DNA from: Ruminococcus sp.
GTDB taxonomy: Bacteria > Bacillota > Clostridia > Oscillospirales > Acutalibacteraceae
Length of the DNA stretch: 45,047 nt
Direction of reading: 5' to 3'
Assembly: GCA_017473775.1 (NCBI GenBank)
Contig: JAFUJH010000081.1
Coordinates: 1-45,047, forward strand
In this document: in pieces, positions 19,860 to 41,933 of the stretch
How the letters are laid out: each line of letters opens with the position of its first letter
How positions within the stretch are numbered: the stretch's first letter is position 1
The notes under the pieces: model-generated
Told to the model about the DNA's origin: nothing
Database searches by the model: none
Seen by the model: only the letters and a program-made list of their open reading frames with translations
Program-made: the position numbers and the translations under genes

Positions 19860-19944
19860 GCAACGAAGGTCAGTCGCTGTTTCTGCACAATCGGTATACA
19901 CTCCCTCTTACTGCAATGCAAATTGTAATATAGGAGGTTATATT

Positions 19945-24007: not shown

Positions 24008-27000
24008 ATGAAAACTAAGAAAATTTTCAAACGCGCACTCACCCTGCTGCTGACCCTGTTGATGTTGCTTTCAACATCCTCTCTGGCACTCTCCGCCGCA
24101 CAGGTAGAAGTTGCCGAGACAGGTGCAACAATTGTTGCTGGGGATATTATCTGGTATAATAATTCTAATAATTGGAGCACTCCTTACATTTATGTATGGG
24201 GTAGTGATTCGTCAGACTGGCCAGGTTATCCTATGACTAAGGATGATACCAGCGGAAATTACTACTGGATATCCAACGGTACTTATACAATGTGTATCTT
24301 TAGTAATAATGGTTCAAACCAGACAGGCGATCTGACAATTGGAGGTGCTGGTTACTTATACAACGGTTCTTCTTGGTCCTCTTATTCAAATGAGGCTCCC
24401 GTTGTGCCTGTAAGTGATGATCTTCTTTCTGTATTAAAAGGTGAGAAGATTATGTTCTACATTGGTATGCCTACGAGTTGGGGTAACAATACAACAACTA
24501 TCTATCTCAAATTGAACGGCTCTAATGTAGCTTTAGGTGCTTCCTCATTTGAATATTCAAGTTCATTTTATTTACCTGTATGCGCTGCTGCAACATCTGG
24601 TTATTATGTTTCCAATAACAATAGTTGGGGCGGTAACGCAATAAGCGGTACACCTGTATCAGGTGGTGCTTATCTTGCAAGTGGTTCTGCAACGGTATCA
24701 ACAGCATATACTGTTTCTGCTTCTTTGGAAAGCAACAGTATAACAGTTGGTTCAAACGCTACTATTAGCAATGTATCAGCTTCAGATGGACATCTTGGTA
24801 AAACCACACAGGTTAAATATTATGTCACCTCTGATGGTTCGGAATTCACAGAACTTTCTTGTTCTAATACAACTCTTGAGACTTCCGAACTTGAGGTCGG
24901 TACATATACCGTATATCCTGTTCTCTATGATGGTTATGTATATACAAGAGGAAACGCGATTAGTTTAACCGTTGCAGATGCAGTTTCTGAGCACACTGTA
25001 ACTTTCGTTAACTACGATGGCACAGTTCTTGATACTCAGACTGTTAAAGACGGCGAGTCTGCCACAGCTCCCACAGTTTCTCCCCGTGAGGGCTACACCT
25101 TCACAGGCTGGAGTGACGGAACTAACACATACAAATCCGACACTCTGCCTACTATCACAGCAGACACTACCTTCACAGCACAGTATACTATTAATACTTA
25201 CGATGTAACTGTTAATTCTGCAACCGGTGGTTCTGCTTCTGCAAATACAGCCACAGTTACTCACGGTAGCACAGTAGAGCTTACTGCTACTGCTGATACC
25301 GCAAACGGCTATGCATTCACAGGTTGGGATATAACCGGTACTTATGATGTTGTTTCCGGTACAACATCATCAGCATCTTTAACCATCAAGGTTTATTCCA
25401 ATATTACCGCGAAGGCCAATTTCCAGCAGATTCCTACTAATACAGTTCAAGGTGTAGTAGGAACAGGAGAAGGTGAGGTTTCACCTGTACAGCAGGAAAT
25501 TGCAGAGGGTAGTTCAGTTATCATCACTGCAACCCCTGCAGACGGTTTTAGATTCTCAGGTTGGTTAATCAGTGGTGACTATACACCCGTGAATTACAGC
25601 GAAACTTCTCCCTCTATTTCCATCATTCCTCTGAGCGATGTTACTGCTACAGCAAACTTCATCAAGACCTACACTGTTACCTTCGTTGATATGAACGGTG
25701 ACACAATCAGCAAGGTTACAGTTGATGAAGGTGCAGATGCAACTGCTCCTTCAGCCCCTGCAGTTGACCACTATACATTTTCTAAGTGGGACACAGACTA
25801 TACTAATGTAACCTCTGACTTGACTGTAAAAGCAGTTTATACAGCTAACACCTACACAGTAGCTGTTACTGCAGGCACAGGCGGTACTGCTCAGACTTCC
25901 GCTGAAAGCGTTACATATCCTAATACTGTAACTCTTACAGCAGATCCTTCCTCCACCGATTATGTATTCGCAGGTTGGGAGATTACAGGTGATTACGAGG
26001 AAGTTTCTTCTACTGCTAACACTATTACAATCCGACCCGAGGGCAATGTAACAGCAAATGCTACATTTTCACTTGGTCAGTACCTCACAGTTTATACCTA
26101 CTCCGATGATGGCTACAAAAAGCTGACTCTCACAGAGTCCAACGGCACAACTGACAACACTGTTATCAATGGTGTTGCACAGCCTTCAACAGAAACCTTC
26201 AACGGCGTAACATGGGATAAATCCGAAGAGGCAGAGCTCAAACAGGGCTACTCCAACTCCGTAACAGCAGTCCTCGCAGGTGAGGGTACATCTTCCGACA
26301 CGGTTATCTATGTTGATTTCAGCAAGGCTACAAGCTGGAGAAGCGGTCACTATCTTTCAATTACTGCTTCTTCCAACTCAGGTAAAACCATATCAAGTTC
26401 TGACACCTCAGGTGCAGGCTCTTATGCTCCTAAGAACGATGCATGGCTTGGCTCAGGTACACTGGTATCCGGTTCTACCTATATGTGGACTATTCCCAGT
26501 GCTAACCTTTCTAACCTTAAGAGTTATGGTTTTACTGTTTGGTCAGTAAATGAGAGTTCCCATGATCAGGTATGGCAGACGGATGTTTCTCATATCGCTT
26601 ATAACGCTTCTTATAATACTTATGAGGTAAGTTCTTCACGCACATATCATACAGACCGTCAGTCATACTGCTTCACACTTACTGCAAGCAGTAACACAAT
26701 GAGCCAGTCCGACTCCATCGACCTGACCTCAACTCTGTACAACGGTACAGCTTGGAGAGGGGAGAGCGAGGTCTGGATTTACCAGTCAGGTACAACTGAG
26801 GTTGTAACTCTCCGTCGTGACCTCCTTAATCTTGTAACTGATACTACTACAGAGTACAATGGCGGCACAAACTCCGTCGGCTACACCGACGACTCCTGGT
26901 CTGCTTTCGTTACTGCTTACGATAACGCTTACAGCGTTTCAGGTGCGGCAGCTTCTACTCAGAAAGCTATCGACGATGCTTACACAGCACTTGATGCTGC

Positions 27001-30000
27001 CTACAAAGCACTCGAGCTTGAGGCTTACTTCATAGTATCATACACTCAGAACGATGTACCTTACAGTGCATCAATCGGCACAACCCAGATTACAACTGCT
27101 ACAGGTACAGTAAATGTAGTTCAGAACAAGGAAGTTACTGTTACCTTCACAGCTCCCACTAACTACTACATTGTATCTGTGAAAATTGGCGAAGAAGTGG
27201 TAGCTACCAACTTAATGGCAAGCTATTCTGCAAATTACACATTTACAAAAGATACCACAATTGAGGTTGTCTATGCTCCCAACCCCACACTTTCCTATCA
27301 GGAGAATGGTGCAACTGGTGGCACAGTAACATTTACAGGAAACACACACACAGCAGATGATGGCACAGTATCTGTTTCTTACGGCTATGATACTACCCTC
27401 AATATCACTGCTCCCGACCTGTACTATATCAACACTGTTGTTATCGGCAGTTATACTTACACAAACACCGTTGAGTCTAAAACAACCTATACATCTACAA
27501 TCACAGAGATAACAGCAGACACAAAGGTTATCATCACCTATATAAAGCGTGAAACCTTCAATGTTGAGGTTCTCGCATATCCCACAACAGGCGGTACACT
27601 TTACTACGGTGAGACCGAGATTCCTGCAGAGGGTACAACAATCGAGGTTCTCGCAGGCGAGTCTGTTACCATCACCGCAGTTCCCAACTCAGGCTACGGC
27701 GTATATTATTGGGTTGCAGACACTGTATCAAACAATCGCGAAAGCTCCTATACCTTCTCAAACATCAACGCAAATCACACTCTTGATATCGAGTGGATAG
27801 AGCTGGAGCAGGTAACTGTCACTACTAACTCAAAGCCCGGCACTGCAGGTACTGCTACAGTTGACGGCTCATCCTCTGTAACAGTTGATGAATTCACAAA
27901 GGTAACACTTTCTGCAACTGTTACCGATACTCGTTACGCTTTTGTCAGTTGGACTATCGAAGGTAGCTACAACACAGTAGACACTACTACCCGCTACGAT
28001 GCAACCTTCAATATTTCCGCTAACAGCAACATCAAGGCAACAGCAAACTTTGAGCAGGTAAACCGTAGAATTTACCTGAAGAATGTTGCCGGATGGAGTA
28101 GTAGTAGTATATATATATATTGCTATGACGGTAATGGTGATGTTGGCAAGTCTTGGCCCGGTTATAAAATGACTTATGATAGTACATTAGGATTCTATTA
28201 TGCAGATGTTCCCCTTGAGACGGTAAATATCATTTTTAACAAGGGTCACAACGATGATCAGAGTCAGGTAGAGTATAAAAACATCGGTAATGAGAACTTG
28301 TATACTAACGGTTCTGACAAAACAGGTTATCCTACTTCTTATGTTGAGCCCGGTTATTACCTCCAGGGTAAATGGAATGGTGCTACCTTCGATGGCTATG
28401 ATCTTGTTATGTTCACAGATAACGGTGACGGCACCTACACCTTAACCCTCACAGTAACCTCTACAACTGACGGTTATATCTATGTTAACCCCACTAACGA
28501 GAAATCATACTTCTGGAATGCCGCTACTGCACATGCAACCGGCAATCCCCAGACTCTTGTTGCTACAGGTGCATATCAGTCTTCTCCTAACTTCGTAAAG
28601 GTTGAAATCGATACATCTGATTATACAAAGGCTTACGATGTAACCTTTACCTTCAATCCCACAACAGGTGAGTTTAGCTGGACAAAGGCTGAGAATGTTC
28701 CCACTATCTCCATTATCGGTACAGATGGTCGCGGCATTAACCAGGCTGATGCTGATATGAGTTCCTCTAATGACAGAGTAGGTGACACCTACTTTGATGC
28801 AGACACAGTTAACCGTGTAAATGAGCACACTTACTACGCTGAGGCTCAGGTAGTTGCAGGTAGCCCTGTAACCTTCTATACTCAGGTCAACGATAACGGT
28901 GCAGGCGGCTACGACTACTATGTTGCAGGCTGGGTAGTAAACGGCACAGAGTTTGTTTCTGCAACTGCTCTGGGTAAGGGTCTCTACAGCGGTTCCTATG
29001 TATTCACAGAGGATTCCGACATCGTTCCTATTTACTTCCACACCAACGATTGGCTTACAGCAAAAGGTGTTAAAACAGTTACTGTTTACGCAGTTGCAGA
29101 TAAGACCATCACAAACTGGGATGAGTATTTCGCAGCTTATACATGGTATAAGACAGGCGGTACAACAAAATACGAGCAGTTTGGTAATTGGCCCGGTCAG
29201 CTTATGATTCCTGTTGCAGGTCTCGATGGCGTTTACTACACCATCATCGAAACCACTTCACCTGACGGCGTACAGATTTCAGGTATTTCCTTTAATAACT
29301 ATTCCAATGGCGATACAATCGATGTTGTTGTACATGACCACAGCAATATCCAGACCTACGACTACTACGAGTTTATCGCTCTCCTTGAGGACGGTAAAGA
29401 GAACATCACCTTCGTTATCAAAGATACAAACGATACCTACAATTCAAACAGAGTTTCAACAAGCTCAATCGACATTACAAACGGTAACTGGGACTTTGTT
29501 CAGTATACCGACTACTCCGGTCTCAAGACCGATATCTTCGGTAACAACATCGAGTCAATCGACTCCACACTCTCTGATGATAACGCACTCTACATCATTC
29601 AGGCAGGTAATAAGAATGTAACTGACAGTACTCTTGATGGTCAGTACTATGTTGAGTGTTATCTCTACAATGCTTCAGGCACATACCTTGGTAAGTGCTA
29701 CTCCTACGAGCTTCACGATGAGGATTCTGCAATCTGGACTACACTCTCCGCTTACAAGAATCAGAGAGCATACATCTCCTACGAAACCGTTAACGGCGCT
29801 CGTTACGACGGTGAGTGGTACGGTGACTCTGATGTGTCCGTAACAGTTAACCTTGCCGTTAATGTTGCACTTATGACAAACGGCTCTTTCACAGCTAAGA
29901 CAGATTCTCCTGTGAATGAGGCTGACTACGGTACAGGCTATATCAACGCTACTTATCAGAATGTAGATGTAACCCGTGGTGCTACAGTAACTATTACAGC

Positions 30001-31756
30001 AACTCCCAAGACAGGTTACAAGTTCGTTGGTTGGTACTCAGCTGACGGCTCACTGTTCACAACTAACACAACAATTACTGTTACAGCAGCTATCGGTACT
30101 ACCTACACAGCTGTATTCGAGGCTCTGGAGAAGGGTAACTATTATGTTAACCATTACATCTATCAGGGTGTAGGTACATCTTCCTATGTTCCTTCTGCAC
30201 ACGGCGGCAACGCAGTTCTCTATGTTGGTATCGATAACCAGACAAAGGGCACAACAGCAGGCTTCAGCGCTCGCGAATCAGCTTACATTGCAGCTGAAGA
30301 GGGCGATATGCTCCTCATCACAATTGCAACTGATGCAACAGGCGCAGATAAGTTCTACGCTTGGTACACAAATGCAGTTGATAAGTACGGTCTCACTACC
30401 TTCGAGGAGGTTGGTGTTGACTCCGTAGATAACATCTACAATAACAACGGCACAGTAGTTGGTCGTAACGATATCGTTTACTTCCAGTTCTACTACACAG
30501 TTAAGGATAACGACAGCTACAGTATGACACTGTACTCCGACCTTATGCCCGTATCTGTTAATGTAACTCTTGTATACCAGTACACAGACCGTTACGAGAA
30601 TGTTAAGTCCTACTATGTTCCTTATACTCTCACAACTGAGGAGGTTGAGGGATTCGAGGGCAACGGCAACACTCCCTACACACCTGCTTATATCAGCGGT
30701 GACGGTTGGGTTAACACAATCATTGCCAATGCACCCCGCGTTGAGGACTACTACAAGGATACAACATGGAAGATCAACAGCGCTATGTACGATACAATGA
30801 CCTTCCACCTGTGGGCAACTCAGCCTTACACAACATACACAGTAACCACTACAGTTACAACTGAGACCGGTTCCAATGTTGTTGTAAATAAGGTTCCCTA
30901 CAACACAGTTGTTGACCTTGATATCCGTGAGATTGCACCCGATGCAAGCTACACTGGCTTCTGGTACAACGATGTTAACAACAACGGTACATACGAGAGC
31001 ACAGTTGATATTATGCTCACATACGGCCCCTACTACGGCTACCGTGTAACTCAGAATATGGCTGTTAACTATCAGCCTGTTAACTCAGCAGAGGATTACG
31101 AGTTCAATGTTTCACTTGACGCTCCTGTTTACGGCCGTGAGCAGACAACTGATGATAAAGGAAACAACAAGACCGATGTTGTAGTAGTTGACTATCTTAT
31201 CAACATCATTACACCTTACTTCTATCTGGGCTCCGATTTCACTCCCATCTATAAGGGTGAGGTTATCACTGATGCAGATTGGAACAAGACTCTTGTAACA
31301 ATCGAGTCACTTGAGGATGCAGGCTACACTGTAGAGTATGGTGTAATCCTCCAGCAGGTAGGCACATTCAAGGTTGACGCTGACTACGCAGGCGACTTTA
31401 CAGCAGCAGAGGCAGCAGCTAAGGAGAAGGGCTACGGCACAGCAACAGATGCTGAGATTCTCAAGTCCTTCCTTGCAACTGACAGCACAAAGGGCTGGAT
31501 TGGTGAGACAGGTACCTACGGTTACAAGTACGATGCTTCTAACCATAATATCACTAACAAGAACAGAGTTCTCTTTGTCTTCGAGCATAACAACACAGAG
31601 TCAAATCAGAACAGATTCTACAATGTATATTCTTATCTGACTGTTACAACACCTGATGAAGTTACAACAACATACATCAGTAATGTACAGACTCTGAATA
31701 TTTATACTGAGGGCAATAAGGACGCTGTTGTAGAAAACAACACATCCTTTGCATAA
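24008..31756 (+). CDS. Giant secreted InlB/Ig-repeat protein with starch-binding-like modules
   Basis: The 2582-residue protein starts with a signal peptide (MKTKKIFKRALTLLLTLLML, cleavage near ALSA-A). A CBM26-like module (about 45-125, IYVWGSDSSDWPGYPMTK) follows. InlB/Flg_new-type repeats with the GYTFTGW or YAFTGWDITG core lie at about 330-690, 1195-1350 and 1985-2040. A FIVAR-like helical part lies near 940-1000. Further CBM-like modules lie near 1353-1450 (SWPGYKM) and 1680-1760 (NWPGQLM). No dockerin, LPXTG motif or SLH domain is at the C-terminus, which ends in ENNTSFA, so the mode of surface retention is unclear. It follows the CotH gene by 37 nt with a similar AATATAGGAGGT ribosome site and is probably co-transcribed. 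A role in adhesion to starch or cells is inference. Confidence 0.85.
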   Translation: MKTKKIFKRALTLLLTLLMLLSTSSLALSAAQVEVAETGATIVAGDIIWYNNSNNWSTPYIYVWGSDSSDWPGYPMTKDDTSGNYYWISNGTYTMCIFSNNGSNQTGDLTIGGAGYLYNGSSWSSYSNEAPVVPVSDDLLSVLKGEKIMFYIGMPTSWGNNTTTIYLKLNGSNVALGASSFEYSSSFYLPVCAAATSGYYVSNNNSWGGNAISGTPVSGGAYLASGSATVSTAYTVSASLESNSITVGSNATISNVSASDGHLGKTTQVKYYVTSDGSEFTELSCSNTTLETSELEVGTYTVYPVLYDGYVYTRGNAISLTVADAVSEHTVTFVNYDGTVLDTQTVKDGESATAPTVSPREGYTFTGWSDGTNTYKSDTLPTITADTTFTAQYTINTYDVTVNSATGGSASANTATVTHGSTVELTATADTANGYAFTGWDITGTYDVVSGTTSSASLTIKVYSNITAKANFQQIPTNTVQGVVGTGEGEVSPVQQEIAEGSSVIITATPADGFRFSGWLISGDYTPVNYSETSPSISIIPLSDVTATANFIKTYTVTFVDMNGDTISKVTVDEGADATAPSAPAVDHYTFSKWDTDYTNVTSDLTVKAVYTANTYTVAVTAGTGGTAQTSAESVTYPNTVTLTADPSSTDYVFAGWEITGDYEEVSSTANTITIRPEGNVTANATFSLGQYLTVYTYSDDGYKKLTLTESNGTTDNTVINGVAQPSTETFNGVTWDKSEEAELKQGYSNSVTAVLAGEGTSSDTVIYVDFSKATSWRSGHYLSITASSNSGKTISSSDTSGAGSYAPKNDAWLGSGTLVSGSTYMWTIPSANLSNLKSYGFTVWSVNESSHDQVWQTDVSHIAYNASYNTYEVSSSRTYHTDRQSYCFTLTASSNTMSQSDSIDLTSTLYNGTAWRGESEVWIYQSGTTEVVTLRRDLLNLVTDTTTEYNGGTNSVGYTDDSWSAFVTAYDNAYSVSGAAASTQKAIDDAYTALDAAYKALELEAYFIVSYTQNDVPYSASIGTTQITTATGTVNVVQNKEVTVTFTAPTNYYIVSVKIGEEVVATNLMASYSANYTFTKDTTIEVVYAPNPTLSYQENGATGGTVTFTGNTHTADDGTVSVSYGYDTTLNITAPDLYYINTVVIGSYTYTNTVESKTTYTSTITEITADTKVIITYIKRETFNVEVLAYPTTGGTLYYGETEIPAEGTTIEVLAGESVTITAVPNSGYGVYYWVADTVSNNRESSYTFSNINANHTLDIEWIELEQVTVTTNSKPGTAGTATVDGSSSVTVDEFTKVTLSATVTDTRYAFVSWTIEGSYNTVDTTTRYDATFNISANSNIKATANFEQVNRRIYLKNVAGWSSSSIYIYCYDGNGDVGKSWPGYKMTYDSTLGFYYADVPLETVNIIFNKGHNDDQSQVEYKNIGNENLYTNGSDKTGYPTSYVEPGYYLQGKWNGATFDGYDLVMFTDNGDGTYTLTLTVTSTTDGYIYVNPTNEKSYFWNAATAHATGNPQTLVATGAYQSSPNFVKVEIDTSDYTKAYDVTFTFNPTTGEFSWTKAENVPTISIIGTDGRGINQADADMSSSNDRVGDTYFDADTVNRVNEHTYYAEAQVVAGSPVTFYTQVNDNGAGGYDYYVAGWVVNGTEFVSATALGKGLYSGSYVFTEDSDIVPIYFHTNDWLTAKGVKTVTVYAVADKTITNWDEYFAAYTWYKTGGTTKYEQFGNWPGQLMIPVAGLDGVYYTIIETTSPDGVQISGISFNNYSNGDTIDVVVHDHSNIQTYDYYEFIALLEDGKENITFVIKDTNDTYNSNRVSTSSIDITNGNWDFVQYTDYSGLKTDIFGNNIESIDSTLSDDNALYIIQAGNKNVTDSTLDGQYYVECYLYNASGTYLGKCYSYELHDEDSAIWTTLSAYKNQRAYISYETVNGARYDGEWYGDSDVSVTVNLAVNVALMTNGSFTAKTDSPVNEADYGTGYINATYQNVDVTRGATVTITATPKTGYKFVGWYSADGSLFTTNTTITVTAAIGTTYTAVFEALEKGNYYVNHYIYQGVGTSSYVPSAHGGNAVLYVGIDNQTKGTTAGFSARESAYIAAEEGDMLLITIATDATGADKFYAWYTNAVDKYGLTTFEEVGVDSVDNIYNNNGTVVGRNDIVYFQFYYTVKDNDSYSMTLYSDLMPVSVNVTLVYQYTDRYENVKSYYVPYTLTTEEVEGFEGNGNTPYTPAYISGDGWVNTIIANAPRVEDYYKDTTWKINSAMYDTMTFHLWATQPYTTYTVTTTVTTETGSNVVVNKVPYNTVVDLDIREIAPDASYTGFWYNDVNNNGTYESTVDIMLTYGPYYGYRVTQNMAVNYQPVNSAEDYEFNVSLDAPVYGREQTTDDKGNNKTDVVVVDYLINIITPYFYLGSDFTPIYKGEVITDADWNKTLVTIESLEDAGYTVEYGVILQQVGTFKVDADYAGDFTAAEAAAKEKGYGTATDAEILKSFLATDSTKGWIGETGTYGYKYDASNHNITNKNRVLFVFEHNNTESNQNRFYNVYSYLTVTTPDEVTTTYISNVQTLNIYTEGNKDAVVENNTSFA

Positions 31757-31766
31757 TAAATTATAC

Positions 31767-31795
31767 TTGACAATGGTAAAAAATTGTGATAAAGT
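31767..31795 (+). promoter_or_regulatory. Possible promoter of the small peptide gene
   Basis: TTGACA (31767-31772) is followed after 17 bp by TAAAGT (31790-31795); a perfect TATAAT lies slightly further (31795-31800, 22 bp from the -35). Either would start transcription close to the 51-codon gene. Confidence 0.45.
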
Positions 31796-31829: not shown

Positions 31830-31985
31830 ATGAAATATGAAGCACCAAGTATGGAAATTATCAGATTTCAGCCTATGGCAAGCGTACTGACTGCGAGCGT
31901 ATTCGTTACTGAAAGCCCCGTTGAGGACAACACACGAGTCACTATTGATGACGAAGACCCCTTCGCAGTTATTCAGAACAACTGA
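31830..31985 (+). CDS. Small RiPP-like precursor peptide, 51 residues
   Basis: A strong ribosome site (TAAGGAGG, ATG 11 nt after AGGAGG) and a perfect terminator 18 nt after the stop frame this 51-codon gene. The peptide begins MKYEAPSMEIIRF. Y3-x-x-P6-x-M8 resembles the YxxPxL leader box that RRE/PqqD proteins bind in lasso-peptide systems. The middle part is Ser/Thr/Val-rich (ASVLTASVFVTES, 17-29). The C-terminal part is acidic (DDEDP, 40-44) and ends IQNN. There is no signal peptide, Cys or Gly-Gly. A PqqD, an HPr-kinase-like enzyme and an exporter are encoded 1.4-4.2 kb downstream. Small peptides of this N-terminal type also occur as orphans in clostridia, so being a modified precursor is inference. 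Confidence 0.7.
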   Translation: MKYEAPSMEIIRFQPMASVLTASVFVTESPVEDNTRVTIDDEDPFAVIQNN

Positions 31986-32003
31986 TTTTCCAAAACATAA
32001 TCA

Positions 32004-32036
32004 GGGTGGATGCATACAGCATCCACCCTTTTTATT
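32004..32036 (+). terminator. Terminator of the small peptide gene
   Basis: A perfect 10 bp stem GGGTGGATGC / GCATCCACCC with a 5 nt loop is followed by TTTTTATTTT. It separates the peptide transcript from the following operon. Confidence 0.9.
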
Positions 32037-32069
32037 TTATTTACCCCTTATAAAGATTGCTCTTGTGTA

Positions 32070-32098
32070 TTGCAATTCCTGTATGGTTTTGGTATAAT
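32070..32098 (+). promoter_or_regulatory. Promoter of the LRR-dockerin/kinase/PqqD/ABC operon
   Basis: TTGCAA (32070-32075), a 17 bp spacer and TATAAT (32093-32098), about 40 bp before the GTG start at 32138. Confidence 0.6.
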
Positions 32099-32137
32099 TA
32101 TTATTATCAGAAATTATGTCAGATAGGGGAGTTTACT

Positions 32138-33391
32138 GTGAAAAAAATATCTTACAAACCTTTGTTAAGCTTGCTTTGTCTTGCAGTTATTATTGCAGTT
32201 TCTCTTGTCCCTGTCTTTGCTTCAACTTATGCGGTTGACGGAGACTGGCGTTACGAGATTACAGGCAGTAATGTGTATTATATCGACTTATATCTGGGCT
32301 CCGGCTCAAGAGTTAATATCCCTGCTCTTTATCAGGAGAAGAAGGTAACTCAGATTAACAGCGAGGCATTTATGAATAACACCACCATGATGTATGTTGA
32401 GATTCCCGCTACTGTTACCTCTATCGGTGCAAACGCCTTCTATGGTTGCACCGCTCTCAAATCTGTTACAATCCCCTCAACAGTTACTTCTATCGGTAAT
32501 AATGCTTTTTATGGTTGCAATTCACTTGTTTCTGTAACCTTTAATTATAAGTCAGCGGTCAAGGTTATACCTGCGCATTGCTTCAATAACTGCCTGTCTC
32601 TGACTACCGCAGTTGTTTCTATGGAAACCGAGAAGATTGATTCATACGCTTTTAGCGGATGCTCCTCACTTTCAACTGCAATTATCCCTCCCTCAGTTAC
32701 AACCATTGCAGACACAGCCTTCCTCGGCTGTAAGTCCCTTGTAATCTACGGTTGGGAGGATACCTATGCTCAGCAGTATGCACAGGATAAGGGAATTCAG
32801 TTTGTATCCTACGGCCCATATGTTGAGCCAACCGCTCCAATATTTACAACCGCTCCTGTTACCACTGTTCCTGAATCTGTAACTGATGTAACACAGCTTC
32901 CCACAACTATACCTTCCACATCAGCATCAACTTCTGCCGATACAGACCCTACAGAGTCAACTGTACCTACAGAGTCCTCTGTTCCTGCTTCCTCCTCAGA
33001 GTCCACCGACCCTGTTGAGTCCTCTACAGCAGGCGTGACCTCAACCTCAACTGACCCTGCAGAGTCCTCAGGCAATTCAGAGGTTACCACTGTTACCTCA
33101 TCAACCGTTGAGACATCATCTTCAACTACACCCACAACCTCAATCGTTCTGCCTACAACAGGCAAGGTGTATATCATCGGTGACTGCGACCTTGACTCCA
33201 AGGTTACAATCAAGGATGCCACTATGATTCAGAAGGCGTCTGCTGAGCTTATCACTATGGATAATATACAGAAATTCCTTGGTAACTGTGACGGCACCGA
33301 GGGTGTAAATATCAAGGATGCCACCCAGATTCAGAAGTATTGCGCAGGTTTCCTCAACATCCTCTTTGTAGGCACAGAGGTACAAATCTGA
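32138..33391 (+). CDS. Secreted BspA-type leucine-rich repeat protein with C-terminal dockerin
   Basis: The 417-residue protein has a signal peptide (VKKISYKPLLSLLCLAVIIA, cleavage near VFA-S). About five LRR_5/BspA repeats (70-208) follow, of the form TVTSIGANAFYGCTALKSVTIP. A Ser/Thr/Pro/Glu-rich linker (228-341) with repeated TESS-like units leads to a type I dockerin (343-408, DCDLDSKVTIKDATMIQ and GVNIKDATQIQ). BspA LRRs bind protein or cell surfaces. The GTG start (32138) is set by AGGGGAG 6 nt upstream; the frame stays open to 32057 without a ribosome site. Its stop overlaps the next start (TGATG), tying it to the kinase gene. The Thr/Ser linker could be glycosylated or phosphorylated; that is inference. 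Confidence 0.9.
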   Translation: MKKISYKPLLSLLCLAVIIAVSLVPVFASTYAVDGDWRYEITGSNVYYIDLYLGSGSRVNIPALYQEKKVTQINSEAFMNNTTMMYVEIPATVTSIGANAFYGCTALKSVTIPSTVTSIGNNAFYGCNSLVSVTFNYKSAVKVIPAHCFNNCLSLTTAVVSMETEKIDSYAFSGCSSLSTAIIPPSVTTIADTAFLGCKSLVIYGWEDTYAQQYAQDKGIQFVSYGPYVEPTAPIFTTAPVTTVPESVTDVTQLPTTIPSTSASTSADTDPTESTVPTESSVPASSSESTDPVESSTAGVTSTSTDPAESSGNSEVTTVTSSTVETSSSTTPTTSIVLPTTGKVYIIGDCDLDSKVTIKDATMIQKASAELITMDNIQKFLGNCDGTEGVNIKDATQIQKYCAGFLNILFVGTEVQI

Positions 33392-34089
33392 TGCCCCGAT
33401 ATAAAATAGCGGATGTGGTAGTATCGCTTGCTACCGAATATGACGAGACTTCTCATTGGTACGAGCCCTACATAACCTCTGAGCCTCTGTCTTTTCCAAA
33501 GACTCTGGCGTGTAATAAAAAAGACATAGATTACCTTGTTACGCAGGGAGTGGGAATCACTGAGCCTATTGCTGAGAATGTACTTCTCTGTAACCTTTTC
33601 AACCGCCTGCTTATCCGCTTTGATGGTAGCTTTATCCACAGCTCAGCCATTATGATTGATAACAAGGTCTACCTTATTTCAGGAAACTCAGGGGTTGGCA
33701 AGTCCACGCTCACTCGACGCCTTCTGAGGCTTTATCCCCAAGGCTCAGTTATTATTAATGATGACAAGCCCTCATTCCGTATTATAGATGATAAATGTAT
33801 TGTTTACGGTACACCCTTTGCAGGTGGCACTGATATCCAATGTAATATGAGCGGTGAGCTTGGCGGTATTGTTTTTCTTGAGCAGGCACAGGAGGATAAG
33901 CTTGTTACACTTACTTCGGCTGAATCCCTGTGTGAGCTGTTACAGCAAACACCGCGGAAACTCTCAAGGGGAGAGACAGACAAGCTCTTTGAGTTTTATG
34001 AAAAGATTATTTCAGCCTATCCCATCTACAAATTATTCTGTACTGACAGCGACAATGCTGCCCATACAGCTTATAAAATTACACAGTAA
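33391..34089 (+). CDS. HPr-kinase-like protein of the peptide-modification type
   Basis: The 232-residue protein has the HprK-like core only. HSSAI (83-87) is followed by Walker A GNSGVGKST (98-106), the acidic pair in INDDKP (122-127) and the family stretch GTPFAGG, then GGIVFLEQA (140-165). It lacks the N-terminal domain of true HPr kinase/phosphorylase. Proteins of this group next to PqqD/RRE genes include the lasso-peptide kinases (paeninodin type), which phosphorylate a serine of the precursor. Its ATG overlaps the LRR stop by one base, so translation is coupled to a secreted dockerin protein, which is unusual. The substrate is inferred: the 51-residue peptide is one candidate, the LRR protein another. 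Confidence 0.82.
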   Translation: MPRYKIADVVVSLATEYDETSHWYEPYITSEPLSFPKTLACNKKDIDYLVTQGVGITEPIAENVLLCNLFNRLLIRFDGSFIHSSAIMIDNKVYLISGNSGVGKSTLTRRLLRLYPQGSVIINDDKPSFRIIDDKCIVYGTPFAGGTDIQCNMSGELGGIVFLEQAQEDKLVTLTSAESLCELLQQTPRKLSRGETDKLFEFYEKIISAYPIYKLFCTDSDNAAHTAYKITQ

Positions 34090-34109
34090 GTCTGAAAGGA
34101 TGTATTAAT

Positions 34110-34373
34110 ATGAAAATTAAAGATAATTTTATGCTCAGAAAAGTTGCCGATTGCTATGTGGTTGTTCCTATCGGCCCTGCAGTTGCTGACTTTAACGGTA
34201 TGATTAATCTTAACGAGGCAGGTGCCTTCCTGTGGCAGTTGCTGGAGAATGAAACAACAGAGGACGCTGTTGTAGCCGCAATGCTGGAGCACTACGATGT
34301 AGATGAGGCTGTAGCCAAGAACGATGTAAAGAAGTTCGTTGCACAGCTTACAGAGGCTGACCTTCTGGACTAA
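34110..34373 (+). CDS. PqqD-family peptide chaperone (RiPP recognition element)
   Basis: This 87-residue protein matches PqqD over its whole length. MLRKVADCYVVVPIG forms the beta-strand start that usually pairs with a leader peptide, LNEAGAFLWQLLE is the first helix, and a winged-helix end closes it. PqqD-type RREs deliver precursor peptides to modifying enzymes. No radical-SAM or cyclase gene is nearby, so the partner is presumably the kinase. AAAGGATG lies 8 nt before the ATG. Confidence 0.88.
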   Translation: MKIKDNFMLRKVADCYVVVPIGPAVADFNGMINLNEAGAFLWQLLENETTEDAVVAAMLEHYDVDEAVAKNDVKKFVAQLTEADLLD

Positions 34374-34395
34374 TATTTTGACCTATATCTTCAAG

Positions 34396-34425
34396 CCGTA
34401 CAGTGTACTGTGCGGTCTTGTTTTA
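34396..34425 (+). terminator. Hairpin between pqqD-like and ABC genes
   Basis: CCGTACAG / CTGTGCGG form an 8 bp stem with one wobble and a TGTA loop, followed by TCTTGTTTTA. It may lower read-through into the ABC gene or stabilise the upstream mRNA end. Confidence 0.5.
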
Positions 34426-34456
34426 TTACAGAAATTATCACAGGCAGGTGATATTT

Positions 34457-36208
34457 GTGGATGATAAATTCACCTTTAAGAAGTTGTTCAGGGCACTGAC
34501 CGACAGCAAATCACTGAAGTGGCTTGTAAGGAGTGCCAGACCCCAGTGGTTTAATATTATAGCTCTGACTGTACTCAATATTATTCTTGCGGCAATTGCA
34601 GTGTTCAATTCCTATATGCTCAGGAATGTTATCGATTCCGCAATCGGTAAGAGCAGCTTCGGTGCACTTGAGGCTGAAAGACTCAGAGGAATCCTGTTCT
34701 GGGGTGTGTTGTTTGGTGCACTTGTTCTTACAAGGGTTATCCTGTCAATTGTCAGTAACCACTTAGTGTTCAGGATTAACGCAAGGCTGACCATTGAGCT
34801 TAAATCAAGTCTATATAAGAATATTCTCAAAAAGAACTATTCCAGCATCACAAAGTTCCACACAGGAGAGATGCTCAACCGTCTCAATAACGATATCAAC
34901 ACCATCGTCGGTGCAATTACCTCCCTTATCCCGGGACTTACCCTTGCACTTGCCCGAATCGTTGGTATTTTCTTTGTTCTTTTGTCAATTGACCCGTGGT
35001 TTACAGTTGCATTCCTTGCAGTGGGTGTCTTTGTGTTCCTTGTTTCCTCCTTCTTTAAAAAATATATGAAGGAGTACCACAAGCAGATTATGGAGACCGA
35101 TGGTAAGATTCGCTCATTTATGCAGGAGACCCTGTCAAGTCTGCTTGTTATCAAGGTGTTCAGTTCTGAGGATAAGGTTTGCGAGGCAGCCTCTGAGCTT
35201 CAGGAGGCAAACTATAAGCGTAAGGCAAAGAGAAATATCATTTCTCTTGTTACTAACGGTTCTTTCTCTGTAGCTTTCAATGCAGCATATTTGTTTGGAC
35301 TTATCTATTGTGCTGTCAAGATTGCACAGGGAGATCCCTTTATTACATACGGTACACTTTCTCAGGTTCTTTCGCTTATTTCTCAGATAAGTGCTCCCAT
35401 TAACTCTCTCTCCGGTGTTCTGCCTATGTATTATTCAGCTATAGGCTCCGCAGAGCGAATTATGGAATTTGAGGCAATTGAAGATGAGATTGCAGTCAAC
35501 GACAGTAACATCGACTTCAGCTCCCTCTACGAGAACCTTGATACAATTGAATTCAAAGATATCACCTTCAGATACGATAGAGACCTAATTTTTGATAGGA
35601 CTTCTCTAACCATAAACAAAGGTGATTTGATTGTTATGACAGGTATCTCAGGTATCGGTAAGAGTACTCTCACCAAGCTTCTGTTAGGTGTATTTCCTAT
35701 TGAATGCGGAGAAATATACCTGAGTCTCAAGGATGGTAGTAAGATTACAGTTGATTGCAACCTCCGTAAACTTTTCTCCTATGTACCTCAGGGCAACTTC
35801 CTGCTCTCAGGCACTATCAGAGAAAATATTGCGTTTATTAAAGAGGATGCTACCGAGGATGAAATTCGCGAGGCAATTGGTTTTGCTTGTGCAGATTTTA
35901 TTTATACATTACCTGACCGGCTTGAGACAGTAATAGGCGAGAAGGGTATGGGTCTGTCTGAGGGACAGATTCAGCGAATCGCCATTGCACGAGCCTTCCT
36001 TTCAGGTGCACCTGTTATACTTCTTGACGAGGCAACTTCTGCACTTGACGAGGCAACAGAGCTCCGACTTCTTGAGAATATCCGCAAGCTCTCTGATAAA
36101 ACCTGCATACTTATTTCTCACAAGAAAGCTGCAAACTCCCTTTGCAATAAAGAGGTACGCATTATCGACGGAAAGATTGTGGTGATTGACCTTGAACACA
36201 AGAGCTAA
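34457..36208 (+). CDS. ABC transporter, ATP-binding and permease in one chain (exporter type)
   Basis: The 583-residue protein has an N-terminal ABC_membrane domain with about six TM helices. The nucleotide-binding domain has Walker A GISGIGKSTL near 396, signature LSEGQIQR near 500 and Walker B VILLDEATSALD near 517. All key motifs are intact, so it should work as a homodimeric exporter. It has no C39 peptidase domain, so any leader removal would need another enzyme. GTG 34457 follows AGGTGA; the frame is open upstream to 34403 but without a good site. In lasso clusters an ABC exporter of this type carries the finished peptide. Confidence 0.9.
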   Translation: MDDKFTFKKLFRALTDSKSLKWLVRSARPQWFNIIALTVLNIILAAIAVFNSYMLRNVIDSAIGKSSFGALEAERLRGILFWGVLFGALVLTRVILSIVSNHLVFRINARLTIELKSSLYKNILKKNYSSITKFHTGEMLNRLNNDINTIVGAITSLIPGLTLALARIVGIFFVLLSIDPWFTVAFLAVGVFVFLVSSFFKKYMKEYHKQIMETDGKIRSFMQETLSSLLVIKVFSSEDKVCEAASELQEANYKRKAKRNIISLVTNGSFSVAFNAAYLFGLIYCAVKIAQGDPFITYGTLSQVLSLISQISAPINSLSGVLPMYYSAIGSAERIMEFEAIEDEIAVNDSNIDFSSLYENLDTIEFKDITFRYDRDLIFDRTSLTINKGDLIVMTGISGIGKSTLTKLLLGVFPIECGEIYLSLKDGSKITVDCNLRKLFSYVPQGNFLLSGTIRENIAFIKEDATEDEIREAIGFACADFIYTLPDRLETVIGEKGMGLSEGQIQRIAIARAFLSGAPVILLDEATSALDEATELRLLENIRKLSDKTCILISHKKAANSLCNKEVRIIDGKIVVIDLEHKS

Positions 36209-37394
36209 ATCCGAATACAAGGCTTGCTTTCCGTATCTTCTCACCCTGTTGTCCTGTTCGCTCAGAGGGTGTAAGCCACCTGTTCCCGAGTCACCTGTGG
36301 ATTGGGCTTCGCTTCTCAGCTTGTCTGAGTTTCACTCCTTGGCAGGTATGGTATCATATTCTGTGAGTCAGCTTCCTGCAGAGTATCAGCCCTGTGAGGA
36401 GATTAATAATATCTTTCGTCAGCATCAGGCTTTATCCCTTGTCTCTGAGTCAAACATCACATTTGAGACAGAGCGACTCCTGAAATCGTTAAGTGACAAG
36501 GGTGTACGGGTACTGCCGGTTAAGGGGTATGTGCTCAAAAATGACTACAGAATTCCTGCAATGCGGACTATGACGGATGTGGATATTATCTACGACGCAA
36601 ACAACAAGCAACAGGTTATAGATGTTTTTACAGATTTTGGTTATACTCTTGATGAAACAGGCTCAGAGCTTGATTTTACCAAAGATAACCTGCATCACTA
36701 CGAGCTTCACGCAAGCTCAGCGGATGCTTACGATACAAGCCATACCTATTTTTCTGATATCCTCAGCCGTGCTGTGTACAGCTCCGACTCCCTTGTAGGG
36801 TGTCTCAGGGATGAGGATGCCTACCTGTATTTGCTCTCTCATCTGTCAAAGCATATGCTCTCAGGCGGAGCAGGAGTTCGTATGATTATGGATGTGTTTG
36901 TTTTTTACGAGGCACACGGAAAGACTCTTGACAGAGCTTATCTCTCAACTGAGCTTTCAAAGCTGAAGCTCATTGATTTTGAGGATAAAATCAGATGCCT
37001 TTCATACAACTGGTTTTCAGGAGGAATTCCAAACACCGATTCACTTCTTGCAGATTTCATACTCTGCGCCTGTACCTTCGGTATTTCAAGGGATTCTCTA
37101 CTTCAATCAGCCTTGAAGGCAGAGAAGTCAACAGGGAAGAAGCAAAATCCTGCAAAGGCATTTTTCAGAAGGCTTTTTCCTTCCTATGGTTTTATTTCCG
37201 ATTTATATCCCATCTCACGAAAGCATAAGTTATTTTATCCCTTCTGCATCGTAGCCCATTGGTGCAACCGAATTTTCAGAAGGCGTAACATCAATACAAA
37301 GAATCTGAAGTATTATATGACCTCAACAGATTCTGCGCAAGCTCAGCGAATCAGCCTCATTATGGAGCAAGCAGGGCTTTCGCCATTTATCTGA
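36186..37394 (+). CDS. Nucleotidyltransferase family protein (NTP_transf_5)
   Basis: The protein of about 400 residues has the NTP_transf_5 signature VLPVKGYVLKNDYR followed by MRTMTDVDIIYD, where the Asp pair binds metal. Reactions of this family are mostly unknown. Members sit in phosphorylated-lasso and other RiPP clusters, where they may add to a phosphate. No ATG is near the N-terminus; TTG at 36186 or 36192 is the likely start, after GGTGAT, overlapping the ABC gene by about 20 nt, so translation is coupled. The C-terminal third is basic (KKQNPAKAFFRRLFP) and resembles a membrane-surface segment. Confidence 0.82.
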   Translation: MTLNTRAKSEYKACFPYLLTLLSCSLRGCKPPVPESPVDWASLLSLSEFHSLAGMVSYSVSQLPAEYQPCEEINNIFRQHQALSLVSESNITFETERLLKSLSDKGVRVLPVKGYVLKNDYRIPAMRTMTDVDIIYDANNKQQVIDVFTDFGYTLDETGSELDFTKDNLHHYELHASSADAYDTSHTYFSDILSRAVYSSDSLVGCLRDEDAYLYLLSHLSKHMLSGGAGVRMIMDVFVFYEAHGKTLDRAYLSTELSKLKLIDFEDKIRCLSYNWFSGGIPNTDSLLADFILCACTFGISRDSLLQSALKAEKSTGKKQNPAKAFFRRLFPSYGFISDLYPISRKHKLFYPFCIVAHWCNRIFRRRNINTKNLKYYMTSTDSAQAQRISLIMEQAGLSPFI

Positions 37395-37410
37395 TATCAC
37401 AGGAGTCTTA

Positions 37411-38049
37411 ATGAAGAATTACACAACTATAATCTGGGATTTCAACGGCACCCTCGTTGATGATGTTTATGCGGCACTTGGTGCTGTCAACGATATGCTC
37501 ATCCGTCGTGATCAGCAGACAATTACAATTGATGATTATTACAAAGCTGTGGATACTCCTATCTGGCACTTTTATGAGCAGGTGTTTATCCCCGGCACTA
37601 TCACACCTGAGGAGGCAATCGCAGAGTTTGACTCGGGCTATGATAAGCATCTCAATCCCAACCCTCTGATGGATGGAGCAGCTCAGATGTTGTCTTACCT
37701 TGCTTCTCTCAACAAAACCCAGCTTGTAGTGTCTGCTTCTCATATCCACAAGGTTACATCAAAGCTTGAGTCCTTAGGAATAATCGGATATTTCCACAAT
37801 GTCCTTGCACTGACAGATTATCATGCAGGGGATAAGACCTTTTTGGCTCAGCAGTATCTTTCCGATAATCAGATAAATCCGAACGATGTAATTGTCATCG
37901 GCGATTGCGTAGCAGATTGGCAGATGGCTCAAGCTCTCGGCTGTGATTGTATTCTTAATACAAAAGGTCACCAGAGTGTCAGAGAGTTTGCCGTCACAAA
38001 TGCAGTGATTATCGACTCTCTGTATGAGCTTAAAAACATCATAAAATAA
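37411..38049 (+). CDS. HAD-family hydrolase
   Basis: The 212-residue protein has HAD motif I as DFNGTLVDD, motif II around VVSAS, and motif IV as VIGDCVADWQMA. The second acid of motif I is Asn, a variant seen in several HAD phosphatases; the nucleophile Asp is kept. It probably removes a phosphate. It follows the nucleotidyltransferase gene by 16 nt with GGAG before the ATG. Whether it works on the same phosphorylated peptide is inference. Confidence 0.85.
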   Translation: MKNYTTIIWDFNGTLVDDVYAALGAVNDMLIRRDQQTITIDDYYKAVDTPIWHFYEQVFIPGTITPEEAIAEFDSGYDKHLNPNPLMDGAAQMLSYLASLNKTQLVVSASHIHKVTSKLESLGIIGYFHNVLALTDYHAGDKTFLAQQYLSDNQINPNDVIVIGDCVADWQMAQALGCDCILNTKGHQSVREFAVTNAVIIDSLYELKNIIK

Positions 38050-38100: not shown

Positions 38101-38754
38101 TTAATCCTGAGTGTCGGGTTCCTTATTTGTAATAAGATATCCCAGTGTCATCAGGCTTTCGCTCAGATGCACATCATTTGACACGCAGTCAGGATAGTGA
38201 GCAGTAATGTCAAAGTGGCTGAAGTTCAGATAATTCCTGATGCCTGCATCATACAGCTTCTTCACCACATCCTCGGCACTTACTGTAGGAATACACAGGA
38301 TTGCAGTGGTAACTGAATTCTCCTTCACACAGTCCTCAATGTCACAGTTGTCCTTGATAGTAAAGCCTGCTAGCTCTGTGCCCACAAGGTGGGGGGCAGT
38401 GTCAAACAGACCGCAGAGCTTAAAGCCGAATTTCTCAAAATCAAAATGAAAAAGCACAGCTCTGCCCAAGTTACCGATACCGTAGATAACAGTATTTTTT
38501 AGTTCATCAATACCCAGTAGCTTCGCAATTTCTTCACGGAGGGTTTTGGTTATATATCCGTATCCCTGCTGACCGAATCCGCCAAAGCAGTTCAGGTCTT
38601 GTCTTACCTGAGAAGCAGTGATGTTCATTGCTTCTGCAAGAGCGCGTGACGAAATTTTCTCTATGCCGTTTTGTTCCATAGTGCAAAGACATCTGTAGTA
38701 TTTAGGTAATCTGCGGATTACAGGCATAGAAATCTGTCCGTCTGTTTTGCTCAT
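38101..38754 (-). CDS. rex: Redox-sensing transcriptional repressor Rex
   Basis: The 217-residue protein has the N-terminal winged helix (RLPKYYRCLCTMEQNG, ASQVRQDLNCFGGFGQQGYGY) and a Rossmann domain (VIYGIGNLGRAV) that senses NADH/NAD+. Rex represses fermentation and redox genes when NAD+ is high. It starts 37 nt downstream of icd with ribosome site GGAGGG and no promoter of its own that I can see, so it is probably part of acn-icd-rex. I found no complete Rex operator by eye in the acn promoter. Confidence 0.95.
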   Translation of the reverse strand: MSKTDGQISMPVIRRLPKYYRCLCTMEQNGIEKISSRALAEAMNITASQVRQDLNCFGGFGQQGYGYITKTLREEIAKLLGIDELKNTVIYGIGNLGRAVLFHFDFEKFGFKLCGLFDTAPHLVGTELAGFTIKDNCDIEDCVKENSVTTAILCIPTVSAEDVVKKLYDAGIRNYLNFSHFDITAHYPDCVSNDVHLSESLMTLGYLITNKEPDTQD

Positions 38755-38791
38755 AATAACCCTCCGTTCAGTTTAATTAAATTTGTTAAGC

Positions 38792-40003
38792 TTACGCCAT
38801 AAGTGTAGCAAGCTTCTTTCCGATTTCCTTGAGGAAGTCCTGAGTGTTTACCTTCTGCTTGTTCTCAAGAGTAGAGATAAGGTACAGGTCGCCTGTCATA
38901 ATGCCGCTCTCGATAGTGTCGATTGTAGCCTTCTCCAGCATATCAGCAAAGTGTACAAGCTCAGAGTTTTCGTCCAGCTCACCGCGTTTTCTCAGTGCGC
39001 CGCTCCATGCAAAGATTGTTGCAACAGAGTTTGTGGAGGTTTCCTCACCCTTCAGATGCTTGTAGTAGTGACGCTGTACTGTGCCGTGAGCAGCCTCATA
39101 CTCGTAAACGCCGTCGGGAGATACCAGTACGCTTGTCATCATAGCCAGTGAGCCGAAGGCTGTAGCTACCATATCGCTCATTACATCGCCGTCATAGTTC
39201 TTGCAAGCCCAGATGTAACCGCCATTGCTTCTGATAACACGGGCAACTGCATCGTCAATAAGTGTGTAGAAATACTCGATGCCTGCAGCCTCGAACTTCT
39301 CCTTGTACTCATTGTCATAGATATCCTGGAAGATATCCTTGAAGTTGTGGTCGTAAATCTTAGAGATAGTGTCCTTGGAGGAGAACCATACATCCTGCTT
39401 TGTAGCAAGTGCATAGTTAAAGCAGGAGCGTGCAAAGGATGCAATGCTCCTGTCAGTATTGTGCATACCCTGTACAATACCGTCACCCTTGAACTCCATA
39501 ATTGTAGCTCTTGTCTCGTTGCCCTGTGCATCAGTTACACACAGCTCTGCCTTAGAGCCTGCAGGAGCCTTCATCTCAGTGTTCTTGTATACATCGCCAT
39601 ATGCGTGACGAGCAATTGTGATGGGTTTAGTCCAAGTGGGGATAAAGGGAACAACACCCTTCACAAGGATAGGAGCACGGAACACTGTGCCGTCCAGAAT
39701 TGCACGGATTGTGCCGTTGGGGGACTTCCACATCTTTTTAAGGTCATACTCTGTCATTCTTGCGGCATTGGGTGTGATTGTAGCACACTTAACAGCAACG
39801 CCGTACTTCTTAGTAGCCTCAGCACTGTCTACAGTAACCTGGTCGTCAGTTGCGTTTCTGTTCTCAAGACCTAAATCGTAGTACTCACTGTTCAGGTCAA
39901 CAAAGGGGAGGATAAGCTCCTCTTTGATAAGAGACCAGATAATTCTGGTCATTTCATCTCCGTCCATCTCAACGAGGGGAGTTGTCATTTTAATCTTAGC
40001 CAT
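38792..40003 (-). CDS. icd: NADP-dependent isocitrate dehydrogenase, eukaryotic-type
   Basis: The 403-residue protein is the homodimeric eukaryote-like form, with [13 protein letters not shown] at the start, [19 protein letters not shown] for isocitrate binding, and [13 protein letters not shown]. It is not the E. coli type. It makes 2-oxoglutarate and NADPH. Its start overlaps the acn stop by 8 nt, and AAAGGAG lies within acn. With aconitase it forms the oxidative arm that feeds glutamate synthesis; citrate synthase is not in this window. Confidence 0.95.
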
Positions 40004-41933
40004 TGTTCTGCTCCTTTGTGTAGTTTAAGAGTCCGCCTGCAAGGATGATAGCCTTCATTCTGTCTGTCAGGTCGCACTTTGCAACAATAGTCTTGCCTGT
40101 GGTCATGTTCTCGATGATAACATCGCCGCCATTCTCAATAATGCTTCTGACTGAAGGCATAACGATTTCGTTACCGAGGGAGAGTGCATCGTAGTCAGCC
40201 TCGTTTGCAAACTCAAGGGGCAGAATACCTGCATTGATAAGGTTAGCTCTGTGAATTCTTGCAAAGCTCTTCACAAGTACAGCCTTAACACCGAGGTAGA
40301 GGGGAGCGAGAGCAGCGTGCTCACGGGATGAGCCCTGACCGTAGTTGTTACCGCCTACAATGATTGATGAGCCCAGAGCCTTAGCGCGAGCAGGGAACTC
40401 CTTGTCGCATACAGTGAAGCAGTGCTCAGAGATTGCAGGAATGTTTGAACGAAGGGGCAGAATCTTTGCACCTGCAGGCATAATGTGGTCGGTAGTAATA
40501 TTGTCGCCTACTTTAAGTGCAACAGAAGCCTCGATGCTTTCCTCCATAGGCTTGGTTGTGGGGAAGGGCTTGATGTTGGGTCCGCGGAGAACCTCAATAG
40601 TATCCATAAGTTCTGCCTCAATTGGCTCGATAATCATATTGTCATTAACAAGGAACTTCTCAGGCAGTGCAATCTCTACAGCCTCACCCAGAGTTCTGGG
40701 GTCTGTGAATACACCTGTCAGTGCAGATACAGCCGCAGTCTCAGGAGATACAAGGTAAATCTGACCGTCAGCAGTACCGCTTCTGCCCTCAAAGTTACGG
40801 TTAAATGTTCTAAGGGATATGCCTGCAGAGTTGGGGGACTGACCCATACCGATGCAGGGACCGCAAGCACACTCAAGGATTCTTGCACCTGCTGCAATCA
40901 GGTCTGCCAGAGCACCGTTTTGTGCCAGCATATTGAATACCTGCTTGCTGCCGGGAGCAATTGAAAGGGAAACAGAGGGACAAACAGTCTTGCCCTTGAG
41001 GATAGCTGCAACTCTCATCAGGTCAAGGTAAGAGGAGTTTGTGCAGGAGCCGATGCAAACCTGGTCAACCTTCTTCTCGCCAATCTCCTCAATAGTCTTG
41101 ATGTTGTCAGGGCTGTGGGGACAAGCAGCCATAGGAACAAGGGAAGAAAGGTCAATATCAATTATCTTGTCATATACTGCGTCCTCATCTGCAGAAAGCT
41201 CTGACCAATCGTTACCTCTGCCCTGAGCCTCAAGGAATGTTTTTGTAATTTCATCAGAGGGGAATACAGAGGTAGTAGCACCGAGTTCTGCACCCATATT
41301 TGTGATAGTAGCACGCTCAGGTACAGACAGAGTCTTAACACCCTCGCCGCCGTACTCGATAATCTTGCCTACGCCGCCCTTAACAGAAAGGATGCGGAGC
41401 ACCTCAAGGATAATATCCTTAGCAGATACCCAGGGGGAGAGTTTGCCTGTAAGGTTTACTCTTACCATCTCGGGCATTGTGATGTGATATGCACCGCCGC
41501 CCATAGCAACAGCAACATCAAGTCCGCCTGCGCCAATAGCCAGCATACCGATACCGCCGCCTGTGGGGGTATGGCTGTCAGAGCCGATGAGAGTCTTGCC
41601 GGGGATTCCGAATCTCTCAAGGTGTACCTGGTGGCAGATACCGTTACCGGGGCGTGAGAAGTAGATACCGTGCTTCTTACAAACAGACTGGATAAATCTG
41701 TGGTCGTCAGCATTCTCAAAGCCTGTCTGCAGAGTGTTGTGGTCTATGTAAGCAACACTTCTCTCAGTCTTAACTCTGGGCACACCCATAGCCTCATACT
41801 CAAGGTAAGCCATAGTGCCTGTTGCATCCTGAGTCAGAGTCTGGTCAATTCTCAGTGCAATGTCAGTACCCTTAATCATCTCGCCTTCCACAAGATGAGC
41901 TTTAATGATTTTTTCCGCGATAGTATAACCCAT
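39996..41933 (-). CDS. acn: Aconitate hydratase
   Basis: The 645-residue protein is the shorter aconitase form. It has [13 protein letters not shown], the first cluster cysteine in CIGSCTNSS, the pair in [15 protein letters not shown], and a C-terminal swivel domain with [11 protein letters not shown]. It converts citrate to isocitrate with a [4Fe-4S] cluster. The ribosome site AAGGAGG precedes the ATG at 41933, and the promoter is at 41972-42000. It is co-translated with icd. Confidence 0.95.

Follow-up and report, generated by a model that had tools for sequence, protein, structure and literature searches.

In our study, the 45,047-nucleotide contig JAFUJH010000081.1 of a Ruminococcus genome (94% complete; the contig is labelled C75 and is called the window throughout) was analysed around a small peptide gene and the modification and export genes which follow it. 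This set of genes is read, with a probability of about 0.65, as a trans-acting phosphorylation and export kit like that of the linear polyphosphorylated peptides (LPP), which would serve peptides that partner large surface proteins. LPP were described in May 2026 from Paenibacillus alginolyticus, which carries the lpp cluster (Popov et al.; PMC13381572), and the lasso peptides used for comparison are those of PMC9266682. In the proposed scheme, the PqqD-type protein would bind the YxxP leader of the precursor, the kinase would phosphorylate one core serine (Ser23), the NTP_transf_5 protein would probably add a sugar or a nucleotide to the Ser23 phosphate and the MsbA-like pump would export the linear peptide. 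The kit would serve the adjoining peptide and also further YxxP peptides dispersed over the genome, whereas the giant protein encoded upstream, the peptide and a leucine-rich repeat (LRR) protein may form a surface module beside it, in which the peptide could be an anchor, an assembly tag or a regulator for the giant.

The kinase alignment was scanned against named genome contigs, which gave at least 556 relatives, and the 80 kept together with loci from further relatives made up 99 distinct kinase loci. The HAD gene is present in nine of these, namely the window (WIN) and its eight closest relatives (L100 to L105, L055 and L056; L057 to L060 are repeats of the same genomes and are excluded), and these nine are referred to as the clade. 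Open reading frames (ORFs) with a ribosome site and a YxxP motif on the kinase strand were found near 26 of the 99 kinases (27 matches, 1 on the opposite strand), whereas 15 control motifs were found near 0 to 5 of the same loci each. The neighbourhood comparison suggested by an earlier reading of this DNA, the original prediction, shows this enrichment, with a nearby YxxP motif in only 26 of the 99 loci under the scan used. That prediction had also held that relatives keeping the kit without a YxxP peptide would speak against it; no such relative was found in the clade, where the peptide is present in 8/8 loci whose sequence reaches upstream (L055 begins too near a contig end).

The window peptide gene has AAGGAGG 11 bases ahead of its ATG and a terminator-like hairpin behind it, in line with the original prediction, where a 51-codon gene with its own ribosome site and terminator had been noted. 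Over the region, promoter-like sites show no excess (14 vs 13.6 in shuffles) and terminator-like sites do (11 vs 5.0); in seven clade loci examined, a promoter-like site was seen in 6/7 and a hairpin with T-run in 7/7. The comparison with the L100 homologue gave 3, 6 and 19 differences at codon positions 1, 2 and 3 over 45 codons, and hence the peptide looks like a genuine gene. Neither Pfam nor NCBIfam names it, and none of 18 peptides compared with NCBIfam was named.

In all eight clade peptides, position +10 counted from the motif Tyr is a Phe, and [DN]PF occurs within the last 14 residues. A Ser is present at +20 from the Tyr in seven (+21 in L105), a number reached by 0 of 10000 shuffles, and every other Ser/Thr column holds at most four. 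Among 31 kinase-locus peptides, 23 have a Ser at +18 to +21 in comparison to 29% in shuffles, and 0 of 5000 shuffles reach this count. For the Ser analysis, near-duplicate peptides were removed (39 to 37); the F-x-x-P peptides L159, L173 and L175 were added by hand to the peptide set, as were eight which are distant or without a scanned kinase (L066, L076, L080, L083, L062, L068 and two of C40), and six of these eight distant additions were omitted from the 31-peptide count. The YxxP matches of L111 and L130 were judged spurious and excluded from the Ser statistics and the pairing, although they are still in the 99-locus listing. In case of LPP, phosphorylation is reported on core Ser3, by numbering 18 residues past the Tyr, and Thr is not accepted there (PMC13381572). 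Ser23 of the window peptide is the likely phosphate acceptor, on account of the conserved Ser column and this LPP position. The leader is kept while the cores are variable, acidic and mostly without Cys. In L126, a YxxP peptide encoded 580 bp ahead of the kinase ORF carries a long Glu-Ser-Asn repeat past its leader, possibly a multi-phosphorylated core.

The link to large proteins comes from the gene order. A same-strand ORF ends 52-78 bp ahead of the peptide in all eight clade loci with a peptide (for L102 only the last 90 aa of this ORF were available). In the wider set of 55 peptides, 32 follow a same-strand protein of 400 aa or more with a gap of no more than 80 bp, whereas this holds for 73 of 444 control ORFs from the same loci (Fisher 1.2e-10). 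A simple rule assigns a signal peptide to 20 of these 32 large partners, and nearly all others begin at a sequence edge; control genes behind a large neighbour with a signal peptide or truncation number 21/444 (Fisher p about 1e-10). Among 18 orphan peptides, away from any kit, which lie at most 80 bp from their neighbour, the gap is 12 to 18 bp in 14.

The C-terminal domain 1 (CTD1) of the window giant was found to be related to the C-termini of the orphan-peptide partners. In 16 chosen genomes, a YxxP peptide follows 20 of the 22 CTD1 ends that are distinct and assessable (9/11 without profile seeds) and 19 of 28 ends with another domain type, CTD2 (12/21 without profile seeds), whereas it follows 13 of 375 control ends, and these 13 look like real family members. 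Presence of CTD1 predicts a following YxxP peptide. Seeds and non-seeds were split by hand and the final test counts distinct C-termini; in the first count, 4/26 CTD1 loci (alignment A5) and 1/30 CTD2 loci (A6) were not assessable, and a locus was available for 30 of the 39 listed A6 matches. Behind several of the CTD2 ends that lack a peptide there is an apparent second giant, and behind one (L283) a peptide frame interrupted by a stop codon. Matches to CTD1 were confined to the source genus (54/148 genomes, 1/44 genera). Pfam gave no match for the window CTD1, one weak match of one member for the CTD1 family and none for CTD2. The CTD2 matches number 17 in genome G015 and 18 in G007, partly in apparent tandem arrays of giants.

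The LRR gene was also assigned with the help of the orphan peptides. In five checked cases with CTD1 partners, the protein behind the orphan peptide has LRR_5 in 5/5 and a dockerin over cut-off in 4/5, and since LRR_5 proteins follow orphan peptides as well, the window LRR gene appears to be part of the peptide module rather than of the modifying kit. Its own dockerin match (E 0.061) is below cut-off, and a signal-peptide-like start was judged by eye.

A profile of the peptide start, used at a cut-off of E up to 0.5 at which the weakest matches may be due to chance, gave matches in 37 of 59 genomes, with up to 11 in one. The source genome has four, which are the window peptide, two at contig C40 and one at C23 (E 0.0066). 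At the order level, outside the genus, a peptide match was found in 7/8 genomes with PqqD vs 0/15 without (Fisher 3.3e-5); the match of G091 is weak (E 0.107), and without it the count is 6/8. This distribution suggests a location of some precursors far from the kit, which may serve them in trans.

The proteins of the kit were compared with profile libraries and known structures. All the ORFs named in the original prediction (peptide, kinase, PqqD, exporter, NTP_transf_5 and HAD) are present on the + strand at the positions in Table 1, whereas the LRR gene between peptide and kinase had been overlooked there. The PqqD Pfam match is strong (E 1.9e-20), and residues Asn35, Tyr62, Asp72 and Phe76 align with N33, Y60, D70 and F74 of LppB, which hold the YxxP motif in its crystal structure (PMC13381572, section 8); Tyr62 and Asp72 are invariant in 16/16 homologues. 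The kinase, predicted to be HPr-like, is weakly so: its top Pfam matches are generic P-loop families, with Hpr_kinase_C at E 0.0014 and all below cut-off, the top NCBIfam match (ScmC) is also below cut-off, and against PDB sequences other P-loop proteins come first, with HPr kinase only at E 1.6. What stands of that prediction is the catalytic-type residues His83, Lys104, Asp124 and Asp125, which are invariant in 13/13 aligned homologues and agree with the His-Lys-Asp-Asp set described in lasso-tailoring kinases (PMC9266682). The exporter matches ABC_membrane and ABC_tran in Pfam, with no peptidase domain among the matches, and in NCBIfam many models match, with MsbA ranking first but short of its equivalog cut-off. 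The NTP_transf_5 (E 5.9e-39) and HAD_2 (E 1.5e-19) matches are also from Pfam, and PsmN, the nucleotidyltransferase (NTP transferase) of pseudomycoidin, gives a precedent for the former as it is linked to installation of a hexose on phospho-Ser (PMC9266682).

In comparison to LPP, the kit has likewise a discrete PqqD-type protein as the recognition element (RRE) of ribosomally synthesized and post-translationally modified peptides (RiPPs), a putative HprK-like kinase (profile matches below cut-off), an NTP transferase, an MsbA-like exporter and no cyclase, and the peptide has a YxxP leader with a Ser 18-20 residues past the Tyr. Since the kit content matches LPP except for the peptidase, it is read as LPP-like. 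On the other hand, the clade loci are without the SpI-like (SipW-type) leader peptidase gene which is a defining feature of LPP, and the window leader keeps YxxP and the downstream Ser, not the middle of YxxPxVLxHQxIxFETxxS. Moreover, the clade adds HAD and LRR genes, and its peptides are dispersed, often next to genes of giant secreted-type proteins. The LPP-like kind is already published (PMC13381572), and by the missing peptidase and the differing leader the clade is an LPP variant and not an LPP member. The original prediction of a RiPP-like system with phosphorylation as the main modification is supported as likely, while it missed both this published relative and the connection with the giant encoded directly upstream. 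NCBIfam systems related to HprK and PqqD (TIGR04353 and TIGR04355) show weak profile likeness to the PqqD protein and the kinase, below the curated cut-offs.

In the 99 kinase loci (-3.5 to +4.5 kb, same strand), PqqD was found in 79, an S24/S26-type gene in 58, ABC in 46, NTP_transf_5 in 33, an LRR/dockerin-type gene in 17 and HAD in 9, all of them lower bounds due to contig ends. The S24/S26 label is based on four seed proteins, and one of the three scanned has a Pfam match (Peptidase_S24). The kit is flanked in the window (38101-41933) by genes which we take to be Rex-, isocitrate-dehydrogenase- and aconitase-like, and it is also beside presumed Rex- and isocitrate-dehydrogenase-like genes in L070, L079, L085, L086 and L087, with a presumed aconitase-like gene in 4/5. 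The same flanking genes in other members of the genus point to one ancestral place of the kit and suggest that the clade lost the peptidase gene afterwards. Elsewhere in the source genome, one SpI match is over cut-off (C30) and weaker ones lie at C30, C34, C92 and C67. The two SpI-type matches at C30 (L095 and L096, one over cut-off) are possible trans-acting leader peptidases, and the proteins adjoining them presumably resemble TasA.

A number of observations weigh against the reading of a trans-acting LPP-like kit for surface partners. An S24/S26-type peptidase gene was found in 0/9 clade loci, searched from -6.5 to +7.5 kb as far as the contigs reach, and the alignment of LppB (9x8z) to the PqqD of the window reaches no better than E 0.5, with the lasso RREs 5v1u and 9x90 scoring better; further pocket positions also differ, e.g. 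V63 of LppB faces Asp65. Under the scan used, 73 of 99 kinase loci have no nearby YxxP peptide, and in some of these F-x-x-P peptides or different small ORFs are present. Of 40 orphan-match regions examined, 22 gave a peptide call and 18 none, the latter being left out of the pairing count. The genome G010 has YxxP matches (C91:12034-12102, L239) but no PqqD match at E 1e-5, whereas the PqqD-bearing genus genomes G001, G011, G016, G024, G027 and G030 gave no peptide profile match; since a peptide lies behind the CTD1 gene in G016, the profile misses some members. The orphans of the source genome at C40 and C23 are outside the tight downstream arrangement. The loci and test genomes were mostly picked for holding peptides, which inflates the raw pairing counts, and the non-seed CTD counts are fairer yet come from the same genomes. 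Profile comparison of three C-terminal domain types showed no shared family.

In spite of these points, a role at the cell surface or in the matrix is most likely for the product, rather than one as an antibiotic, as judged from gene order, because YxxP peptides often partner genes of large secreted-type proteins. The narrower proposal, that the kit makes dedicated phosphopeptide partners and that the C-terminal domain of the giant and the adjacent peptide work together as anchor, assembly tag or regulator, is tentative. RRE-guided RiPPs include bacteriocins, and a diffusible phosphopeptide secreted as an antimicrobial or signal, with the large-protein neighbours being an operon convenience, would account for variable cores behind a kept leader; the authors of the LPP report also saw in its patchy distribution in Bacilli a pattern typical of conflict genes (PMC13381572, section 12). 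Such a product is unlikely here, as the pairing with large secreted-type proteins is seen at many loci, no immunity gene was recognised among the kit genes, and the cores are acidic and mostly lack Cys. A substrate other than the YxxP peptide may also be considered, e.g. the LRR protein, whose gene overlaps the start of the kinase gene by one base and has an LRR-type counterpart at the same place in 9/9 clade loci. This is improbable in view of the YxxP enrichment over the 15 control motifs, the kept PqqD pocket residues, the conserved Ser column and the same kind of LRR protein following orphan peptides away from the kit.

The lasso-peptide reading was rejected, as a search of the whole genome (94% complete) at E 10 gave no B2 protease (Transglut_core3) match and no Asn-synthase-like cyclase was matched on contig C75. 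The original prediction, which had noted the absence of both from the window, was upheld; its proposed genome search for distant copies found no B2 and gave Asn-synthase-like genes at C90, C50 and C47, off the contig. These genes would fit a decayed or split lasso system with its cyclase acting from elsewhere, and the paeninodin and pseudomycoidin phosphorylated lasso clusters share with the window the His-Lys-Asp-Asp kinase, the RRE and the NTP transferase (PMC9266682). Even so, such a system is very improbable: the B2 match is missing, the same gene set is kept in nine clade loci, and paeninodin-type leaders carry WxxP whereas YxxP is carried by LPP and by non-paeninodin lasso peptides (PMC13381572, section 9), so the prediction erred in taking YxxP as the paeninodin-type sign. 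The predicted acceptor Ser is also internal here and C-terminal in the paeninodin type.

Table 1. Positions of the features of the peptide module and the kit in the window.
Feature	Position	Strand	Basis or remark
Giant protein, 2582 aa (InlB-type repeats, CBM26, weak FIVAR; signal-peptide-like start)	24008..31756	+	directly upstream of peptide gene
CTD1 of giant	31364..31753	+	alignment A5; segment without Pfam name
Promoter-like site TTGACA-17-TAAAGT, peptide gene	31767..31795	+	
Precursor peptide, 51 aa, leader motif Y3-x-x-P6	31830..31985	+	
Ser23, predicted phosphate acceptor, 20 residues past motif Tyr	31896..31898	+	Ser column conservation
Acidic D-P-F motif close to peptide C-terminus	31956..31964	+	[DN]PF conservation in clade
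Intrinsic-terminator-like hairpin 3' of peptide gene, 11 pairs and T-run	32003..32029	+	
Promoter-like site TTGCAA-17-TATAAT ahead of LRR gene	32070..32098	+	
LRR_5 (BspA-type) protein, 417 aa, sub-threshold C-terminal dockerin match	32138..33391	+	Pfam
HPr-kinase-like peptide kinase (putative)	33391..34089	+	weak profile matches, kept catalytic-type residues
PqqD-type discrete RRE	34110..34373	+	Pfam, LppB alignment
MsbA-like ABC exporter	34457..36208	+	Pfam, NCBIfam
NTP_transf_5 protein, putative modifier of phosphorylated Ser	36186..37394	+	Pfam; precedent PsmN
HAD hydrolase	37411..38049	+	Pfam; relatives in 9/99 kinase loci, the clade

Upstream of the giant, a CotH-kinase protein with a dockerin and a CBM26 match below cut-off (19837-23970) ends 37 bp before it. 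On C34 of the source genome (L018, 14661-17308), a further set of same-strand genes encodes PqqD, a YxxP peptide that contains Cys, a kinase of this type and a radical SAM protein, followed by a large protein which is CotH-like with a dockerin by eye; the order PqqD, peptide, kinase, radical SAM is repeated in L094, from a different genus. In L109, L113, L118, L122 and L147, small ORFs without YxxP lie just upstream of the kinase, and they are perhaps another precursor type.

The named relatives closest to the window come from animal-gut metagenomes, and their genomes carry the label Ruminococcus or that of other Clostridia. The hub-and-spoke layout, the pairing of giant and peptide and such a role for a RiPP were not found in the open-licence literature searched, and for LPP itself the biological role is described as unknown, with biofilms offered only as speculation (PMC13381572, section 12). 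Our study ties LPP-like peptides by gene pairing to large secreted-type proteins in gut Ruminococcus relatives, which is a first clue to their role. The pairing yields a domain, a serine and partner genes which can be tested directly. Further, searches limited to gene clusters would miss precursors lying far from the kit.

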